DNA from: Ignavibacteria bacterium
Lineage (GTDB): Bacteria > Bacteroidota > Ignavibacteria > Ignavibacteriales > Melioribacteraceae
Assembly: GCA_016873835.1 (NCBI GenBank)
Contig: VGVY01000010.1
Location: 1-38,145, forward strand
DNA length: 38,145 bases
Reading direction: 5' to 3'
Shown here: positions 23,988 to 38,125 of the stretch, piece by piece
How the letters are laid out: the number at the start of each line of letters is the position of its first letter
Position numbering within the stretch: position 1 is the stretch's first letter
Translations under genes and position numbers: made by a program
The notes under the pieces: generated by a model
Database searches by the model: none
What the model saw: only the letters and a program-made list of their open reading frames with translations
What the model was told of the DNA's origin: nothing

Positions 23988-25484
23988 TTAATACTTTATT
24001 AATGTGCCTTGTCTCTCTTTTGCTTTTTTATCCCATTCGGGAATTACATTATCAATCAAATCTTTTTTATCTGCTCTTAATTCTGTCATATCAAGACCAA
24101 TGTATCTCTGAGCCTTCTCCTTAGTTGAAATATCTGGAAATGCAATCGGATATTTTACACCTTTCTTAACTAATACTATAGCTAATTCTCTTCTAGCTTC
24201 TTCTGCTTTTTGAATTGCTGTTCCCAATACTCTAAAAGCTTCTACTGGTGCATGAAAACCAAGTCCGTTTGTCGCCGCCACATAATCCCATCTCCACTGA
24301 GCATGTCGGATCAATTTTAAAATTGGTTTCATTTCTGACTCAGTTGCGCCCTTATCCCAAGCGGTCTTTGCCTCCATATGTGCTTTTGCAATCCCTTTTT
24401 CTGCAATTCTTCTTGTCTCCTCAACTCTATCCTGAGTGAATTGTACATCTCTAATTAACGTTTCTGTTTTTTCTCGATGACAAACTGCGCATGAATTTTC
24501 AACATTTGCTAATGGACTCTGTATATGATGATCTGTGAACTTTACTCCGCCTTCAGATTTGTACGGCATATGACAATCGGAACATGAAACCCCTCTCTTT
24601 GCATGAATTCCGGTCATGAACATTTCATAGTCTGGATGTTGTGCTTTTATCATCGGTGCTTTGCTCAAAGCATGTGTCCAATCAGAAAATTCTATATCAT
24701 CATAGTATTTTTCCATATCCTCCGTAGTAAAACCATTATCCCAGGGAAAAGTCAAATATTTCGCACCTTCAACTTTTTTTGCATTAAAATAATATTCAAC
24801 GTGGCATTGTGCGCAAACCAATGAACGCATTTCGTTGTGTGAAAAATCATTTATACTTTTTCCTTGTCTTTCAAATGCTTCTACAAGAGCCGGTCTTGTA
24901 ATTCTTAAGTCCATCGTCTTCGGATCATGGCAATCTTGGCATCCAATCGGATTAACAATTTCGTGTCCAAAATCTTTCCAGGTTCCGCTGTAATAACCGG
25001 CAACTCCTTTTTGTCCCATTACCCTTGGAACATCTGTGCTTTTACATGTCCAGCACGTTGACGGCATAGGGCTTTGTTTGGCCCCTCCAGTCCTTAAAGT
25101 ATTTCTTGTATCAGTAATTGCATTTGCATGTCCTCGTCCTTGATTATAATCTCTTGAAAAGCCATAACCAGCCCATAGTATTACTAATTCTGGATATTTC
25201 TCAAGATAATCTGTCATTGATGACCCGCCATGCTTGCTTGCAAAATCACTATCTAGTGTTTTGCGGTATGATTCATACTCTCTTGGATAATTTTCTCCCC
25301 AAATTTCATTTCGTGGCTCCCAGTCGGAAATAGGCTTTACTGTTTGTAATGTAAATGATTCTCCTCTCCTTTCAACTATTGACGATGCAAGTAGCCCTAA
25401 TAGAAACACTATCACTATTGTTAGTAAAAACAGAACCCATCCAACCCATGGTTTTTCTTTGATTAATTCATTAATTGGTTTCAT
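23988..25484 (-). CDS. nrfA: ammonia-forming pentahaem cytochrome c nitrite reductase NrfA
   Basis: Reduces nitrite to ammonium with six electrons in the periplasm. All five haem sites are present: the catalytic C144-W-T-C-K148 with lysine as axial ligand, and C182-H186, C224-H228, C301-H305 and C332-H336. The calcium site and active site residues are recognisable as E230-Y231 in CHVEYYF and K280-x-Q282-H283 in MIKAQH. Residues 14-35 form a single N-terminal membrane segment or uncleaved signal anchor. It follows nrfH and precedes the barrel gene. The product may also reduce NO and hydroxylamine, as characterised NrfA enzymes do. Confidence 0.97.
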   Translation of the reverse strand: MKPINELIKEKPWVGWVLFLLTIVIVFLLGLLASSIVERRGESFTLQTVKPISDWEPRNEIWGENYPREYESYRKTLDSDFASKHGGSSMTDYLEKYPELVILWAGYGFSRDYNQGRGHANAITDTRNTLRTGGAKQSPMPSTCWTCKSTDVPRVMGQKGVAGYYSGTWKDFGHEIVNPIGCQDCHDPKTMDLRITRPALVEAFERQGKSINDFSHNEMRSLVCAQCHVEYYFNAKKVEGAKYLTFPWDNGFTTEDMEKYYDDIEFSDWTHALSKAPMIKAQHPDYEMFMTGIHAKRGVSCSDCHMPYKSEGGVKFTDHHIQSPLANVENSCAVCHREKTETLIRDVQFTQDRVEETRRIAEKGIAKAHMEAKTAWDKGATESEMKPILKLIRHAQWRWDYVAATNGLGFHAPVEAFRVLGTAIQKAEEARRELAIVLVKKGVKYPIAFPDISTKEKAQRYIGLDMTELRADKKDLIDNVIPEWDKKAKERQGTLIKY

Positions 25485-25519: not shown

Positions 25520-26113
25520 TCAGTTGTTAATCCATTCGGGAATTGCAGATTTCATTTTTGGCACTTTAGCTATTGGTGTGGAAGATAATCCTTTAACTTT
25601 TCCATGTGGAGTTTCTCTGTGACAGTCCCAACAATATTTTCCTTCATGCTGTTCAGCAATGCTTCTGTAATTAACCTTTCTATAAGAAACTGGATGGAGC
25701 TGTTTCTCATGACATCGAATACAATTTTCTTGCACTGCATTTTTACCGGCTTGCTTAATTCTTATAACTTGCGGTTCCATTCTTAATGTAAACATAGTTG
25801 CATGTCTTAGACCATCGCTTGCTTTAAATAGATATTTTCTTAGAAAATTATCTTGCGGAACGTGACAATCATTACAATTAGCAACCTTCCCGTGACTCCC
25901 TCTTTGCCAAGTCGCATACTCTGAAGTCATTACATGACAATTAATACATGCTTCGGGTTTGTCTGATAAATATGACACAGCATTGGAAATGTGGAAAATG
26001 TAAAAAATCAACCCAACAAATATTCCTACTATAACAAATACTTGAAATCTCCAGTTTCTAGGTGGTTTAATCACATTAATTGCTTTTTGAAATTTCTTAA
26101 TATCTTTTACCAT
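25520..26113 (-). CDS. nrfH: tetrahaem quinol dehydrogenase NrfH
   Basis: Membrane-anchored NapC/NirT-family cytochrome that passes quinol electrons to NrfA. One membrane helix is at about residues 23-42. Four haem motifs follow: C56-INCH60 with M62 in the position of the unusual methionine ligand of NrfH haem 1, C80-H84, C131-H135 and C161-H165. The 197-residue length is a little longer than archetypal NrfH. It starts one base after the stop of the upstream ferredoxin-type gene, indicating tight co-translation. Confidence 0.95.
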   Translation of the reverse strand: MVKDIKKFQKAINVIKPPRNWRFQVFVIVGIFVGLIFYIFHISNAVSYLSDKPEACINCHVMTSEYATWQRGSHGKVANCNDCHVPQDNFLRKYLFKASDGLRHATMFTLRMEPQVIRIKQAGKNAVQENCIRCHEKQLHPVSYRKVNYRSIAEQHEGKYCWDCHRETPHGKVKGLSSTPIAKVPKMKSAIPEWINN

Positions 26114-26114
26114 T

Positions 26115-27203
26115 TTATTCTCCGGGCTCAGATATATTATTTAGTTCTTCAATTTCCGATGAAGATCTTGGATGACCAAATGAGTTTCTATTTTGATGAA
26201 GCTCAATGTACTCTTGACTTGAGATATTTGACTGCCAGTTGCCAGTAAAAATTCCAATACTTGTTATACCAACATAAATAAGGACTATTACAAAAATAAG
26301 TGATTTTTTGGATACTTTTTTTTCAACAACTTTAGTATTTACATCAAGAGTATTTGCAACCGGACATACATCAATACAATTATAACAGCTAGTGCATTCA
26401 TCAGATCGAACCGTTACAACCTTATCAACTTTTATAAATGACGGGCATGCTTTAGCACAAAGCGCACAATCAACACATTTGCTCACATTACGTTTTATTT
26501 TTGTTGGACTTAAAAATGAAATCAATCCTAGAAGCGCTCCGTAAGGACATAAATATCTGCACCAAAAATATCTTATATAAATGGAGAGAAAAAATAGTAT
26601 TGAAATTACAATCAAAGAAAATTGACTAATTTCTGCAAAGAAGTAATACATTTTTATATCAGATATTTTATTGTAAGAACTATCCAAAAAATATTTTAAT
26701 GCTGCTGTAGTCATGGAAAAGAATATTGAGTAAACAAAAAATGCTAAGAGTAAATATTTCAATGAACGTAAAGGGTAATCCAAATAACCGGGTAGTTTTA
26801 CTCTTCTCTTAAAAATTTTCTTATAAAACTTTTCACCAAAGTCGCCAACTACTTCTGATAATAAACCAATCGGACATATCCAGCTGCAAAATGATTTTCC
26901 TACAACGAACGATACACCAACTATAGCTAGAAAGATAAAAAAACCGGCTGGATGTGCTGCGTGGATATCCCCTGTAAGTAAAAAGTAATATACACTCATT
27001 AAAGAACTGATAGGTAAAAATGCTTCGACCCCAGCCGGTCGGGTGGAAATAAAATTTGTATCTCCCACTTCAAGTGATTTTACGAAGAAGGAAAATTCAA
27101 CTCCAATCCAAATACAAATCAATGCAAAAATTAATTGAATAATAAATCGATACCTTTGTATCGGTTTTTCGGAATTTTTCTCAATTCTTTTCTTTTCGAT
27201 CAT
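26115..27203 (-). CDS. NapH/NosR-like membrane polyferredoxin
   Basis: A 362-residue inner membrane iron-sulfur protein and first gene of the nrf operon. It has about five membrane helices, two CxxxCP motifs (C106-SWIC110-P and C215-RYLC219-P) as in the NapH/NosR/CcoG family, and two classical [4Fe-4S] ferredoxin motifs with ligands C243, C246, C249, C253 and C270, C273, C276, C280. A last membrane segment lies near residues 303-320, followed by a hydrophilic tail. NapH proteins move quinol electrons toward periplasmic reductases, so an alternative electron route into NrfH is the natural reading. A NosR-like role for the divergent NosZ is also possible, as no nosR gene is present here; the flavin-binding domain of NosR is absent. 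Confidence 0.88.
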   Translation of the reverse strand: MIEKKRIEKNSEKPIQRYRFIIQLIFALICIWIGVEFSFFVKSLEVGDTNFISTRPAGVEAFLPISSLMSVYYFLLTGDIHAAHPAGFFIFLAIVGVSFVVGKSFCSWICPIGLLSEVVGDFGEKFYKKIFKRRVKLPGYLDYPLRSLKYLLLAFFVYSIFFSMTTAALKYFLDSSYNKISDIKMYYFFAEISQFSLIVISILFFLSIYIRYFWCRYLCPYGALLGLISFLSPTKIKRNVSKCVDCALCAKACPSFIKVDKVVTVRSDECTSCYNCIDVCPVANTLDVNTKVVEKKVSKKSLIFVIVLIYVGITSIGIFTGNWQSNISSQEYIELHQNRNSFGHPRSSSEIEELNNISEPGE

Positions 27204-27220: not shown

Positions 27221-27240
27221 AATTCAGATTATAAAATCCG
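27221..27240 (-). promoter_or_regulatory. putative Rrf2 operator A, over the nrf operon -10 region
   Basis: Read toward nrf, the 20-mer contains CGGAT-N6-ATCTG followed by AATT, an inverted repeat with one mismatch. It matches operator B (27363-27382) at 14 of 20 positions in the same orientation relative to transcription. A TATAAT (27233-27228) lies inside it as a likely -10 element; the matching -35 region is poor. The site is 17 bases upstream of the napH-like start codon. Confidence 0.55.
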
Positions 27241-27329
27241 TTTCAAAAATATTCTTTTTCCTTTATTTTTCCAAGAAAATTAGTGTACAAGGATTAAAAA
27301 AGATAATAATGGCCTGGTTTTCTTTTAAC

Positions 27330-27358
27330 TTGACAAAAAACTAAAATGTGCTTAGATT
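27330..27358 (+). promoter_or_regulatory. sigma-70-like promoter of the rrf2-nos operon
   Basis: A perfect TTGACA (27330-27335) and TAGATT (27353-27358) are separated by 17 bases. Transcription would begin near 27365, inside operator B, leaving a very short leader before the Rrf2 start at 27384. Confidence 0.65.
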
Positions 27359-27362
27359 TAAT

Positions 27363-27382
27363 CGGAACATTAAATCCGAATT
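27363..27382 (+). promoter_or_regulatory. putative Rrf2 operator B, over the nos operon start site
   Basis: CGGAA-N6-ATCCG (27363-27378) extends to a larger imperfect inverted repeat, TTAATCGGA (27358-27366) against TCCGAATTAA (27375-27384). It overlaps the predicted transcription start and stops at the ATG of the regulator gene, the expected place for an autoregulatory site. It shares CGGA-N8-ATCYGAATT with operator A. Confidence 0.6.
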
Positions 27383-27383
27383 A

Positions 27384-27785
27384 ATGATTAATATTAAAGT
27401 AAAATATGGGCTGAAGGCTCTTATTTATCTCTCAAACCGTGGTATGCACTCAATTACATCTGCAGCTCAAATTTCTGAAGAGCTAGAAATTCCAAAAGAA
27501 TTTACCTCTAAAATTTTGCAATCACTTACAAAATATGGTTATGTAGAATCGCGTAAAGGAAAAGGCGGAGGTTTTGGTTTATCACAAGATCCATATGAAA
27601 TAAAAATTTCTGATCTATTTACATCATTAGGGAACTCATTTGATGATCAAGTTTGTCTTTTTCAAATCAATAAATCTTGTAAGGGAGAAAATTGCAGACT
27701 ATGCAATGAGTGGAATTCTTTTAATGAAAAGTTTAAAGCTCTTATCAAAGAGTATACAGTTGGCAGTTTCTCATGTTTACTATAA
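27384..27785 (+). CDS. Rrf2-family transcriptional regulator (NsrR/IscR-like)
   Basis: A 133-residue winged-helix regulator. MINIKVKYGLKALIYLS starts the DNA-binding domain as in IscR and NsrR, and the wing carries the family signature SRKGKGGGFGL (56-66). The sensor loop contains C91, C99, C104 and C107 plus C131 at the end; three cysteines at this place normally hold a [2Fe-2S] or [4Fe-4S] cluster, and the extra cysteine spacing (C-x7-C-x4-C-x2-C) is unusual. I preferred ATG 27384 over GTG 27348, which lies upstream of the predicted RNA start. It precedes the cytochrome and nosZ genes by 28 bases, so it probably senses NO or redox state and controls the nos operon and, through operator A, the nrf operon (inference). 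Confidence 0.9.
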   Translation: MINIKVKYGLKALIYLSNRGMHSITSAAQISEELEIPKEFTSKILQSLTKYGYVESRKGKGGGFGLSQDPYEIKISDLFTSLGNSFDDQVCLFQINKSCKGENCRLCNEWNSFNEKFKALIKEYTVGSFSCLL

Positions 27786-27813: not shown

Positions 27814-28284
27814 ATGAAAAAATATTTAATCACAATAACAATTATCACCTTACTTATTTGGGCTTGCGGCGAGGGTAAAAATGAAAGCGGAAGCTCTGAT
27901 TCAGCCAAAGAAAAGTTGGCTGCAAAATTTGGACTCACACTTTGGGAATATGAAAATGGTATTGGGCCAATTAAAGAAAAAATTCAGCTGAGTGAATTAA
28001 ATATGTCGAAAGCAAAATCGGGTGAGCAAGTGTTTACAATTAAATGTACGCAATGCCATAAACTTGATGAGCGTTATACCGGACCAGCGCTACGAGATGT
28101 AACTACAAGAAGATCGTCAGAATATATAATGAATCAAATTTTAAATCCAGAAGAAATGGCAATGAAGCATCCCGAAGCAAAAAAATTATTAGTACAGTAT
28201 GCTAATAAAATGACTTTTCAAAATGTAACACAAGAAGAAACACGAGCAATCTTAGAATATCTTCGTTCAGTAAACAATAAATAA
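27814..28284 (+). CDS. monohaem cytochrome c lipoprotein of the nos operon
   Basis: A 156-residue periplasmic electron carrier. The short signal peptide ends in a lipobox LLIWAC with C18 as lipid anchor. After a linker, a class I cytochrome c domain has C78-TQCH82 and a candidate distal methionine at M133 in NKMTFQN. GPALRDVTTRR and the C-terminal RAILEYLRSVN helix are typical. It starts with an AAGGAG site and is followed by nosZ after 12 bases, so electron delivery to NosZ is the likely role. Confidence 0.87.
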   Translation: MKKYLITITIITLLIWACGEGKNESGSSDSAKEKLAAKFGLTLWEYENGIGPIKEKIQLSELNMSKAKSGEQVFTIKCTQCHKLDERYTGPALRDVTTRRSSEYIMNQILNPEEMAMKHPEAKKLLVQYANKMTFQNVTQEETRAILEYLRSVNNK

Positions 28285-28296
28285 TAAGGAGGCAAA

Positions 28297-30231
28297 ATGA
28301 AAAACAAAAAAATTCTAGTTTCTCTAATAGTATTGGTAATTTTTTCTGCTGTGCTATATAATTGTTCAGATTCAAATAACGGTTTTGGGGATGCAGCAAA
28401 CCAAGTTTATGTTGCGCCCGGAACGCATGATGATTTTTACTTTTTTACTTCGGGTGGGTTTAGCGGTCAAGTTGGTGTATATGGCCTTCCATCAGGAAGA
28501 TTATTTAAACAACTCAGCGTTTTCTCGCAGCATCCGGAAACTGGTTATGGATATTCAGAAGAAACAAAACCGATGTTGATGACATCACATGGTTTTATTC
28601 CTTGGGATGATGCACATCATCCAAAAATATCCCAGACCGAAGGAGTGGCAGATGGAAGATGGTTGTTTATTAATGCCAACAACACTCCTCGTGTAGCAAG
28701 AATAGATTTAAAAACATTTGAAACAAATGAAATCATTGAAATTCCAAACTCTGGCGGAAATCACGGTTCTCCATTTCTAACCGAGAATACAGAGTATGTG
28801 GTTGCATCAACCCGTTTCAGCGTTCCTATTCCTGACAGAGATGTTTCAATTTCATCTTACAAAGAAAATTTCAAAGGAACGATTTCATTTATTAAAGTTG
28901 AATCCTCGGGGAAGATGAATTTAGCTTTTCAAATTCTTGTACCAGGATTTAATTATGATTTAGCACATGCCGGAAAAGGACCTTCACATGGATGGGCATT
29001 TTTTACATCTTATAATACAGAAGAAGCAAATACATTATTGGAAGTGAATGCTTCACAAAGTGATAAAGATTTTATTGCCGCTGTAAATTGGAAGGCTGCT
29101 GAAAAATTCGTTGCAGAAGGAAAAGCAAAATCTTTAAGTGCAGAATATTATAGAAATTATTTTGATGAGGAAAAACAACATGCGTTTTCAGAAAAAAATT
29201 CTAAAGTTTTGATTTTAAGTCCTCAAGAATGTCCGGGATTGATTTATTACCTACCAACACCAAAATCACCGCACGGTGTAGATGTTGACCCATCGGGGGA
29301 ATACATTGTGGCCGGCGGTAAATTAGCTGCCGTAATCCCCATTCATTCATTTTCAAAAATGCAACAAGCAATTGAGAGTAAAGATTTTATTGGTGATGTT
29401 GGCGGGATTCCAATTTTAAAATATGAATCTATTATCGCTGGTGAAGTTGAAGATCCCGGATTAGGTCCTTTGCATACAGAATTTGACGGAGATGGATACG
29501 CATATACATCAGCATTCATTTCCTCTGAAATCGTAAAATGGAAATTAGGAACATGGGAAGTAGTAGACAGAATTCCAACATATTATTCAATTGGTCACCT
29601 TTCAATTCCTGGCGGAGATACTAAAAAACCTTGGGGCAAATATGTTATTGCATTAAACAAAATAACAAAGGATAGATATCTTCCAACTGGTCCGGAATTA
29701 ACACAATCCGCTCAGTTAATTGATATAAGCGGTGATAAAATGAAACTGCTATTAGATTTCCCAACAGTTGGTGAGCCGCATTATGCTCAAGGAATTCCAG
29801 CAGAAGTATTGGCAAAGAACTCTAAGAAATTCTTTGAGCTTGAGAAAAACAATCACCCACACGGAGTAAAAAGCGAAAAAGAAACAAGAGTTGAACGAAA
29901 AGGAAATGAAGTCCGCGTGTACATGACAACAACCAGAACTCACTTCAAGCCGGACAACATTGAGGGAATACGTGTGGGCGATAAAGTCTATTTTCATATA
30001 ACAAATTTGGAACAAGACTGGGATATTCCACATGGATTTGCAATTAAAGGATTACAAAATGGAGAATTGTTAATTATGCCGGGGCAAACAAAAACAATAG
30101 TCTGGAATCCATTAAAAGCTGGAGTTTATCCATTTTATTGTACTGATTTTTGTTCGGCTCTGCATCAAGAAATGTCTGGTTATGTAAGAGTCTCGCCATC
30201 GGGAAGTAATGTTCCATTGTCATTCAATTAG
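28297..30231 (+). CDS. nosZ: nitrous oxide reductase, clade II (Sec-exported)
   Basis: Reduces N2O to N2 in the periplasm. The N-terminus has no twin-arginine motif but a Sec-type hydrophobic stretch ending near LYNC (Cys23), possibly a lipoprotein; this marks the clade II form. The seven-bladed propeller that holds the CuZ cluster contributes histidines in DDAHHPK, NHGSP, DLAHAGK, SPHGVDVD, GPLHTEFDGDGY and SIGHLS. The cupredoxin domain holds CuA with the IPHGF histidine and C615-T-D617-F-C619-SAL-H623-QE-M626; clade I enzymes have Trp where Asp617 stands. Length 644 residues is normal. It has an AGGAGG-like ribosome site and is the main enzyme of the operon. Confidence 0.97.
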   Translation: MKNKKILVSLIVLVIFSAVLYNCSDSNNGFGDAANQVYVAPGTHDDFYFFTSGGFSGQVGVYGLPSGRLFKQLSVFSQHPETGYGYSEETKPMLMTSHGFIPWDDAHHPKISQTEGVADGRWLFINANNTPRVARIDLKTFETNEIIEIPNSGGNHGSPFLTENTEYVVASTRFSVPIPDRDVSISSYKENFKGTISFIKVESSGKMNLAFQILVPGFNYDLAHAGKGPSHGWAFFTSYNTEEANTLLEVNASQSDKDFIAAVNWKAAEKFVAEGKAKSLSAEYYRNYFDEEKQHAFSEKNSKVLILSPQECPGLIYYLPTPKSPHGVDVDPSGEYIVAGGKLAAVIPIHSFSKMQQAIESKDFIGDVGGIPILKYESIIAGEVEDPGLGPLHTEFDGDGYAYTSAFISSEIVKWKLGTWEVVDRIPTYYSIGHLSIPGGDTKKPWGKYVIALNKITKDRYLPTGPELTQSAQLIDISGDKMKLLLDFPTVGEPHYAQGIPAEVLAKNSKKFFELEKNNHPHGVKSEKETRVERKGNEVRVYMTTTRTHFKPDNIEGIRVGDKVYFHITNLEQDWDIPHGFAIKGLQNGELLIMPGQTKTIVWNPLKAGVYPFYCTDFCSALHQEMSGYVRVSPSGSNVPLSFN

Positions 30232-34956: not shown

Positions 34957-34986
34957 TATCTTACTACAACAATTACGGAGGTGTTA

Positions 34987-36219
34987 ATGAAATCCAAAAT
35001 GTTAATTTTATTAACCATGTATTTATTTGCCGGAATGAGCAATGCCCAAAATTGTATTAATTGTCACAAAGCAGTTACTCCTCAAATTGTTTCCGACTGG
35101 CAAATAAGCAAGCACTCTCAAAATGATGTGGATTGCGCTGTATGCCATGGAAGTGATCATAACAGCGGATCTAATGTTGCAAATGTAAAACTTCCAACGC
35201 CTGAAACTTGTGCTCAATGTCATGATACTCAAGTAACACAATACAAGAAGGGGAAGCATTCTTTAGGATGGGCTGCAATGAAGGCTATGCCGACAGCACA
35301 CATGCAGCCAATGGCTTTAATGGATGGATTAAAAGGATGCGGCGGCTGTCATAAAATTGGCGACAAATCAACAGAGGAATTAAAACAGCTTAAAGAATCG
35401 GGTTCTAAATTTGGTCACTTTGCATGTGAATCTTGTCACACTCGTCACACTTTCAGTGCAGAAGAAGCCCGGCAGCCTCAAGCATGTCAAACTTGCCATC
35501 AAGGTTTTGATCATCCACAATGGGAAATGTATTCATCATCCAAACACGGTGTTCGTCATAATTTAAAACAGCTTGGTGTTTTAAGTAAAGATGCTTCAGC
35601 GCCAACATGCCAAACATGTCATATGTCTAAAGGTGATCATGAAGTAAGAACTGCGTGGGGCTTTTTAGCTGTAAGATTGCCAATGCCGCAAGACGAACAA
35701 TGGGCAAAAGATAGGGCAACAATATTAAAAGCACTTGGTGTTCTTGACCCTGATGGAAAACCAACAAAGTTAGTTGATGTTGTAAAAGCAGCCGATGTAG
35801 CAAGGCTAACAGAAGAAGATTGGCAAAAGGAAAGAAATAAAATAATTAAGATTTGTGGTGATTGTCATTCTGAAAATTTGGTTAAAGCCGAACTTCAAAA
35901 AGGAGATGAAATGATTCGCCAAGCTGATCGTTTAATGGCGGAAGCAATAAATATCGTTTCGGAACTTTATAAAGAAGGTGTGCTCAAAAAAGCTGAAGGT
36001 TATCCACATGCTTATCCGCTTCTTTTAACATTTCATGATGCGCCAACTGTTATTGAACAAAAACTCTTTGTTATGTTTCTTGAACACAGAATGAGAACTT
36101 TTCAAGGTGCTTTTCATAACAATCCAGATTACTCACTATGGTATGGATGGAGTGAAATGGTTAGAGATCTTTCAGAAATAAAAGAACTGGCTGCAGATAT
36201 GAGAAGAAATAAACATTAA
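34987..36219 (+). CDS. octahaem hydroxylamine oxidoreductase-like cytochrome c
   Basis: A 410-residue periplasmic multihaem protein. The ATG at 34987 has GGAGG five bases upstream and gives a signal peptide KMLILLTMYLFAGMSNA. Eight CXXCH motifs are at C23, C50, C75, C118, C147, C167, C208 and C290, the number and spread of HAO-type cytochromes; by family knowledge the fourth (C118-GGCH122) would be the catalytic haem. The C-terminal helix bundle has FVMFLEHRMRTFQGAFHNNPDYSLWYGWSEM, the HAO-type ending. Whether the haem-crosslinking tyrosine of true hydroxylamine oxidases exists needs an alignment; without it the enzyme would run as a reductase, as proposed for epsilonproteobacterial HAO. Last gene of the operon. 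Confidence 0.88.
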   Translation: MKSKMLILLTMYLFAGMSNAQNCINCHKAVTPQIVSDWQISKHSQNDVDCAVCHGSDHNSGSNVANVKLPTPETCAQCHDTQVTQYKKGKHSLGWAAMKAMPTAHMQPMALMDGLKGCGGCHKIGDKSTEELKQLKESGSKFGHFACESCHTRHTFSAEEARQPQACQTCHQGFDHPQWEMYSSSKHGVRHNLKQLGVLSKDASAPTCQTCHMSKGDHEVRTAWGFLAVRLPMPQDEQWAKDRATILKALGVLDPDGKPTKLVDVVKAADVARLTEEDWQKERNKIIKICGDCHSENLVKAELQKGDEMIRQADRLMAEAINIVSELYKEGVLKKAEGYPHAYPLLLTFHDAPTVIEQKLFVMFLEHRMRTFQGAFHNNPDYSLWYGWSEMVRDLSEIKELAADMRRNKH

Positions 36220-37644: not shown

Positions 37645-38076
37645 TCACAATGAAGTTATTTTTTCAATTGTTTTTTCTCTAAGCTGCTCTAAGGTTTCAG
37701 CATTCAACATACTATAAGTTTCTTCTCTAAGTTTTCCCCATTTATCATGAACCGGGCAAGGTTTTTCAACAGAACAGCCAGGGAAGCCTAGAACACATTG
37801 TTGAAAAGCTTCTAATCCGTCAATAGTTTCAACAATATCAATTAACTTTATTTGAGAAGGATTTTTTGCAAGATAAAAACCACCGCTTTTGCCTTTTTTT
37901 GATCCAACAATACCGCTGTTTGTTAATATCTGCAAAACTTTTGAAACAAACTCTTTAGGAACTTTGAGCTCTTTTGAGACCTCAGCAGCATTATAGATTT
38001 TCTTTTCTTTTTTAATGGAAAGAAAAAGAACCGCTTGTAGCCCAAGCTCGCATGCTTTGGAAAAGAAGACAGTCAT
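37645..38076 (-). CDS. second Rrf2-family regulator (IscR/NsrR-like)
   Basis: A 143-residue winged-helix regulator, starting MTVFFSKACELGLQAVLFLS, with wing GKSGGFYLA and the sensor cysteines C94, C101 and C107 plus H110 (C-x6-C-x5-C-x2-H). In IscR three cysteines and a histidine at this place hold a [2Fe-2S] cluster, so iron-sulfur or NO sensing is likely. It differs from the nos-linked Rrf2 in cysteine pattern. A terminal region (LNAETLEQLREKTIEKITSL) forms the last helix. It lies at the window edge, and its target genes may lie beyond it. Confidence 0.9.
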   Translation of the reverse strand: MTVFFSKACELGLQAVLFLSIKKEKKIYNAAEVSKELKVPKEFVSKVLQILTNSGIVGSKKGKSGGFYLAKNPSQIKLIDIVETIDGLEAFQQCVLGFPGCSVEKPCPVHDKWGKLREETYSMLNAETLEQLREKTIEKITSL

Positions 38077-38095: not shown

Positions 38096-38125
38096 TGTAT
38101 ATAAGATGTATAATTCTGAAATCAA
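38096..38125 (-). promoter_or_regulatory. promoter and direct repeat upstream of the second rrf2
   Basis: On the minus strand TTGATT (38125-38120) and TATATA (38103-38098) are 16 bases apart. Two TGTATA hexamers on the plus strand (38096-38101 and 38107-38112) repeat with an 11-base period, one helical turn, and overlap the -10 region, which could be a binding site for the regulator itself. Confidence 0.4.

Follow-up and report, generated by a model that had tools for sequence, protein, structure and literature searches.

A conserved palindrome at the divergent nrf and nos promoters of an Ignavibacteria bacterium, a candidate operator for Rrf2-family repressors

The locus, its promoters and the two sites

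The stretch of DNA analysed here (the window, 38,145 nucleotides) is contig C10 of a 2.75-Mb assembly that is 98.8% complete and whose nearest named relatives are Melioribacter and other Ignavibacteriota. Two nitrogen-oxide operons diverge from a single intergenic region (Table 1). The minus strand carries nrfA, nrfH and the gene for a NapH/NosR-like ferredoxin protein (fdH), while the divergent plus-strand operon begins with rrf2a and continues with genes for a c-type cytochrome and a Sec-type NosZ and then with the remainder of a clade II nos cluster. A multihaem cytochrome of the Multi-haem_cyto / cytochrome c554 families is encoded beside the nos cluster, at 34981-36219, and is a possible further nitrogen-oxide or electron-transfer enzyme.

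Table 1. Features of the window, with predicted regulatory elements marked as such
Feature	Position	Strand	Remarks
nrfA, ammonia-forming cytochrome c nitrite reductase	23988..25484	-	NF008339, 644.7 bits (cut-off 595)
nrfH, electron donor of NrfA	25520..26113	-	TIGR03153, above cut-off
fdH, NapH/NosR-like membrane 4Fe-4S protein	26115..27203	-	First gene of nrf operon
Site A operator core (predicted)	27223..27242	-	AACGGATTTTATAATCTGAA; directly downstream of -10/-7 box of fdH-nrfH-nrfA operon
nrf-side promoter	27244..27274	-	TTGGAA (27274-27269) as -35, TATTTTTG (27251-27244) as -10/-7; from orthologue alignment
Second conserved block	27296..27317	+	Degenerate copy of GGATAWTMAWGACCC; upstream of nos -35, at about -60
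nos-side promoter	27330..27358	+	TTGACA-N17-TAGATT; TTGAC-to-site distance fixed in nearly all orthologues
Site B operator core (predicted)	27361..27380	+	ATCGGAACATTAAATCCGAA; over presumed start point of rrf2-cytc-nosZ operon
Rrf2a, Rrf2 regulator adjoining site B	27384..27785	+	133 aa; candidate repressor and autoregulator
c-type cytochrome of nos operon	27814..28284	+
nosZ, Sec-dependent (clade II) N2O reductase	28297..30231	+	TIGR04246, 946.6 bits (cut-off 625)
Rrf2b, second Rrf2 regulator	37645..38076	-	143 aa; end of cluster
Possible degenerate third site, rrf2b promoter	38101..38120	-	TCAGA-N8-TCTTA; same-family matrix 9.6 bits, rank 3

The two sites were first described as 20-mers, CGGATTTTATAATCTGAATT on the minus strand (27240-27221, site A) and CGGAACATTAAATCCGAATT on the plus strand (27363-27382, site B), and their coordinates, sequences and identity at 14 of 20 positions are exact as given. 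Both are instances of one even-centred 20-bp palindrome, ATCRGA-N8-TCYGAT, with the dyad arms TCRGA-N8-TCYGA. The pattern originally read from them, CGGA-N8-ATCYGAATT, captures a real inverted repeat but in a register that is off by two. A palindrome has no direction, so the orientation of each site along its own transcription falls away; the sites look oriented because in each one the end of the -10/-7 box runs into the upstream arm. At site B the dyad (27362-27379) is a perfect 5+5 repeat, TCGGA-N8-TCCGA, the only one in the intergenic region that contains G/C, and the operator core ends 4 nt before the rrf2 ATG. At site A the dyad (27224-27241) is TCAGA-N8-TCCGT, with one arm mismatch, and this site is weaker in the window than in its orthologues. 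A third, degenerate candidate at the rrf2b promoter scores near the null mean of 9.4 bits with the same-family matrix and has no support from the other-families matrix (both described below), and is left as weak.

The TTGACA-N17-TAGATT promoter on the nos side and the regulator's ATG at 27384 are confirmed, and TAGATTTA within this promoter resembles the Bacteroidota-type -7 box TAnnTTTG. The nrf-side promoter, which is degenerate in the window itself, was placed by alignment to TTGACA...TATAATTTTG in two loci of relatives, L006 and L035. A TATAAT is present within site A, as first noted, but it is the A/T spacer of the palindrome and was rejected as a -10 element: the conserved -10 of the orthologues (TATAATTTTG) lies just before the site, where the window has TATTTTTG on the minus strand. 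In the promoter alignment, the operator follows TTGAC and an A/T-rich -10/-7 box (TAnnTTT) at a near-constant distance, and in nearly all aligned promoters it begins at the end of this box and spans the presumed start point. A repressor that keeps RNA polymerase off the promoter is expected at just such a place, in keeping with the repressor-like placement proposed from the start, with the operator fit to block initiation.

The block upstream of the nos -35 element, GGATAWTMAWGACCC in its conserved form, is found at the nos promoter in six loci that represent part of the Melioribacteraceae. It lies some 60 bp before the presumed nos start and is a possible activator site. As a genome-wide motif it was rejected, the inspected copies away from nos promoters being mostly inside ORFs.

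Conservation and specificity of the palindrome

Conservation at orthologous intergenic regions, on which the original prediction had been staked, was examined, and the same palindrome is kept at the same two places: the position of site A in nine loci of relatives and that of site B in 12 orthologous rrf2/ric-nos promoters. In the Ignavibacteriota as a whole it occurs before cytochrome-nosZ operons, before fdH-nrf operons and before the rrf2b gene. The idea of an operator common to both promoters, linked to Rrf2 and predicted to be autoregulatory, is supported by this conservation at the nos, nrf and rrf2 promoters of orthologous loci. Melioribacteraceae relatives have additional sites before genes for Ric/YtfE (DUF542-hemerythrin), hemerythrin and DUF438-hemerythrin-PAS proteins, before nrfH and the gene for the 4Fe-4S protein of the cluster, and before genes of the cytochrome c or COX1-like type. 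In L035 (3150-3890) and L037 (2050-2800) the gene that directly follows site B is not rrf2a but a Ric/YtfE-like (DUF542-hemerythrin) ORF, identified by sequence resemblance.

The pairwise match between the two sites carries no weight of its own. In first-order Markov versions of both AT-rich promoters the best 20-mer match has a median of 14 and reaches at least 14 in 135 of 200 cases, and the actual promoters contain a second, unrelated pair of 20-mers that agree at 14 positions. The identity first offered as evidence is thus at chance level and was rejected as such; the evidence for A and B is comparative. That the two AT-rich promoters are alike merely by chance is what the median would lead one to expect, but this explanation is already refuted by the conservation of the sites, and also by the matrix and genome-wide ranks and by the promoter alignment, so that it is hardly credible.

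A matrix built from relatives, with the window excluded and with training sites from the same family, gives the window's two top scores to B (22.1 bits) and A (16.3 bits), followed by 9.6 bits for the next match. Since the motif itself helped to gather some of the relatives' sites, the main test is a matrix whose training sites all come from other families. It places B first and A second among 38,118 window positions, at 19.9 and 15.3 bits, with the next best at 3.7 bits. Only one of 2000 symmetric column-permuted matrices puts both top matches in this intergenic region. The palindrome is also specific genome-wide. With a profile of 52 sites from relatives, run over whole genomes, the 2.75-Mb genome of the window scores highest at B and third highest at A. 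Of seven further genomes, most likewise have their top match at the nos/nrf cluster; that of G066 lies instead at a separate fdH promoter and that of G086 at a cytochrome c gene. One profile match (G000:C28:18026) has no matrix site of at least 13 bits and is treated as chance.

A related geometry extends beyond the phylum. Promoters of nosZ-linked Rrf2 genes in Bacteroidota carry AAARGA-N8-TCYTTT, which has the same RGA-N8-TCY geometry with a different outer half-site. It is found upstream of nosZ and/or its Rrf2 gene in twelve loci, often as the sole full match within a locus of about 22 kb, and these sequences suggest a common operator code in the FCB group. Upstream of nosZ-linked Rrf2 genes of Calditrichota (L078:3313 and L072:8950) stand TAAGACATCAATGTCTTA and TAAGACAAAAAAGTCTTA, another half-site variant with N8 spacing.

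The two Rrf2 proteins and the alternatives

Both regulators of the window belong to the Rrf2 family (Rrf2a: Pfam PF02082, 87.9 bits against 30, and TIGR00738, 94.2 against 73.3; Rrf2b: TIGR00738, 102.5 against 73.3). Cys ligand sets are retained in both lineages. Rrf2a has C91-x7-C99-x4-C104-x2-C107, kept throughout its lineage except in L038, and Rrf2b has C94-x6-C101-x5-C107-x2-H110 together with Glu10. Three conserved Cys ligands of the NsrR type are thus found in each protein, C94/C101/C107 in Rrf2b and C91/C99/C104, plus C107, in Rrf2a. In ScNsrR the acidic N-terminal fourth ligand is Asp8; in an alignment made by eye and not including ScNsrR, the residue that may correspond to it is Glu10 in Rrf2b and Lys/Arg in most Rrf2a proteins. 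The HTH/wing segments of the two are alike (PKEF-SK...S-KGK-GGF). The Rrf2a lineage evolves fast, with long branches and 33-54% identity within the family; Rrf2b proteins of the same genomes share 67-84% identity.

The palindrome is linked to one Rrf2 clade. A tree of 83 Rrf2 proteins places 35 of its 37 site-labelled rows in one 52-row branch (support 99/97) that includes both lineages and the two genes of the window (27384+ and 37645-). Two motif-linked rows, L041 and L043, lie outside this clade, and some of its members carry no site. Rrf2b orthologues in other Ignavibacteria have the same palindrome in their own promoters, which predicts autoregulation, except in L035, L036, L157 and L172; that of the window is at best weak.

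Of the proposal that one Rrf2 protein serves both promoters, the common, Rrf2-linked operator stands, but the regulator is probably not simply one protein: the window has two genes of the same clade, and relatives in which no adjacent rrf2 was found keep both sites. In the genomes G294 (L035) and G295 (L037) both sites are kept at 23-30 bits, and the two Rrf2 genes found in each are an Rrf2b orthologue and one other, neither of the rrf2a type, so that an IscR/NsrR-like protein of the Rrf2b type probably binds there. In the window, either or both Rrf2 proteins may bind A and B. These two genomes also lend weight to the possibility that Rrf2b is the main repressor at A and B and that Rrf2a only tunes or no longer binds, although the completeness of both assemblies is not stated. 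Outside the family, it is the Rrf2b lineage alone that accompanies the palindrome and has it in its own promoter. On the other hand, site B lies directly at rrf2a in most Melioribacteraceae, the recognition helix (PKEF-SK) and wing (SRKGKGGGF) of the clade are retained in Rrf2a, and in the window the site at the rrf2b promoter is degenerate. On balance a main role for Rrf2b is conceivable, though not the favoured assignment. That the sites belong to another regulator altogether (CRP/FNR, NarL or other), Rrf2 being linked by neighbourhood only, is improbable: CRP/FNR-type control is frequent for nitrogen-oxide genes (PMC1274295), but no FNR-like match with up to two mismatches overlaps A or B, and rrf2 genes of one clade have the palindrome beside them even where nos is not their neighbour.

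The nature of the signal is approached through the predicted targets. One of them, Ric/YtfE, is typically under NsrR control (PMC1274295) and so hints at nitric oxide or nitrosative stress. The relatives' sites, which stand before nrf, nos, Ric, hemerythrin and DUF438 genes, mark the combination of nitrosative-stress and nitrogen-oxide genes, under presumed control, that is characteristic of NsrR. The sites before the Ric/YtfE, hemerythrin and DUF438 genes suggest a nitric-oxide or redox signal. The case for nitric oxide is drawn from relatives, several of them MAGs of unstated completeness, because the genome of the window has no ScdA_N (Ric) or Hcp gene and no copper nitrite reductase (NirK) above cut-off. 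The bound Rrf2 protein might instead sense redox or Fe-S status, like IscR or RsrR. The NCBIfam SUF-regulator, IscR and NsrR models score close together, all below cut-off, the best solved relatives of Rrf2b are chains of the redox sensor RsrR (6hsd, 6y45), and the Cys4 pattern of Rrf2a is unusual. Since the relatives' targets are nitric oxide/nitrosative and nitrogen-oxide genes rather than isc/suf, a sensor of this kind is conceivable but less likely than not.

Proposed mechanism and relation to known systems

It is quite likely that A and B serve as operators of dimeric repressors of the Rrf2 family, from a single Ignavibacteriota clade, which would lift their repression of both operons upon a nitric-oxide or redox signal; most likely the palindrome is the operator of an autoregulated NsrR-like repressor, with a new sequence. 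An Rrf2 dimer would bind ATCRGA-N8-TCYGAT from the end of the -10/-7 box across the transcription start of each divergent operon, and would exclude RNA polymerase from the genes of nitrite ammonification (fdH-nrfH-nrfA) and of N2O reduction (rrf2a-cytc-nosZ and so on). Through site B the adjacent rrf2a would repress itself. Nitric oxide or a related redox signal would change the presumed Fe-S cluster, and both operons would then be switched on together. A more tentative extension is that two diverged Rrf2 proteins (Cys4, C-x7-C-x4-C-x2-C, and Glu/Cys3/His) read one operator and combine two signals so as to switch on nitrite ammonification together with N2O reduction, and that RGA-N8-TCY is a clade II nos code crossing phyla, with half-sites ATCRGA in Ignavibacteriota and AAARGA in Bacteroidota; this is possible, if doubtful.

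Clade II N2O reducers are a major biological sink of N2O, and we know of no established model of clade II nos regulation. With a candidate operator, candidate repressors and a short list of predicted targets, this regulation can be tested directly. Joint induction of DNRA (nitrite to ammonium) and N2O consumption is predicted from them for Ignavibacteriota, and the motif allows regulons to be predicted from metagenomes. In the available part of a survey of marine metagenomes, clade II nos clusters are described as being without the NosR regulator typical of clade I, and Rrf2 genes are reported beside clade II nosZ; that part gives neither a binding motif nor a target set (PMC6264515). The Melioribacter roseus genome paper, in the part available, proposes that the BadM/Rrf2 regulator Mros1101 may control the neighbouring nos operon, and the gene order is the same; the account there describes no operator and does not link the nrf operon or a second Rrf2 (PMC3534657). 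No description of an ATCRGA-N8-TCYGAT operator was found in the open-access papers searched.

Among characterized proteins, IscR, the SUF regulator and RsrR share the Rrf2 fold, and the C-x6-C-x5-C-P-x-H motif and Glu10 of Rrf2b are close to those of Fe-S Rrf2 proteins. Unlike them, the two proteins score below the cut-off of the IscR equivalog (TIGR02010, 44.5 and 51.7 bits against 207.55), the operator is different, and the predicted targets are other than Fe-S assembly genes, the neighbourhood being nos/nrf and not isc/suf.

The comparison with NsrR is the closest in function. The published NsrR operator consensus is gATGyAT-N5-ATrCATc (PMC1274295), and the original view that the motif is unlike it agrees with a search allowing up to three mismatches, which finds no copy in the intergenic region and seven in the window, where seven are expected; the classical NsrR and FNR motifs were both discarded as matches at A or B. 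Besides this difference from ATCRGA-N8-TCYGAT, both proteins fall far below the NsrR equivalog cut-off (NF008240, 182 bits; Rrf2a 46.4, Rrf2b 42.0), and their main predicted targets are the divergent clade II nos and nrf operons. Like NsrR of E. coli, Neisseria, Bacillus and Streptomyces coelicolor, they combine an Rrf2 winged helix and a conserved Cys cluster with an operator at the promoter, and their predicted target genes overlap with those of NsrR in nitrite and nitric oxide metabolism and Ric/YtfE. The predicted autoregulation also has its counterpart in NsrR of S. coelicolor, which is autoregulated (PMC9338935).
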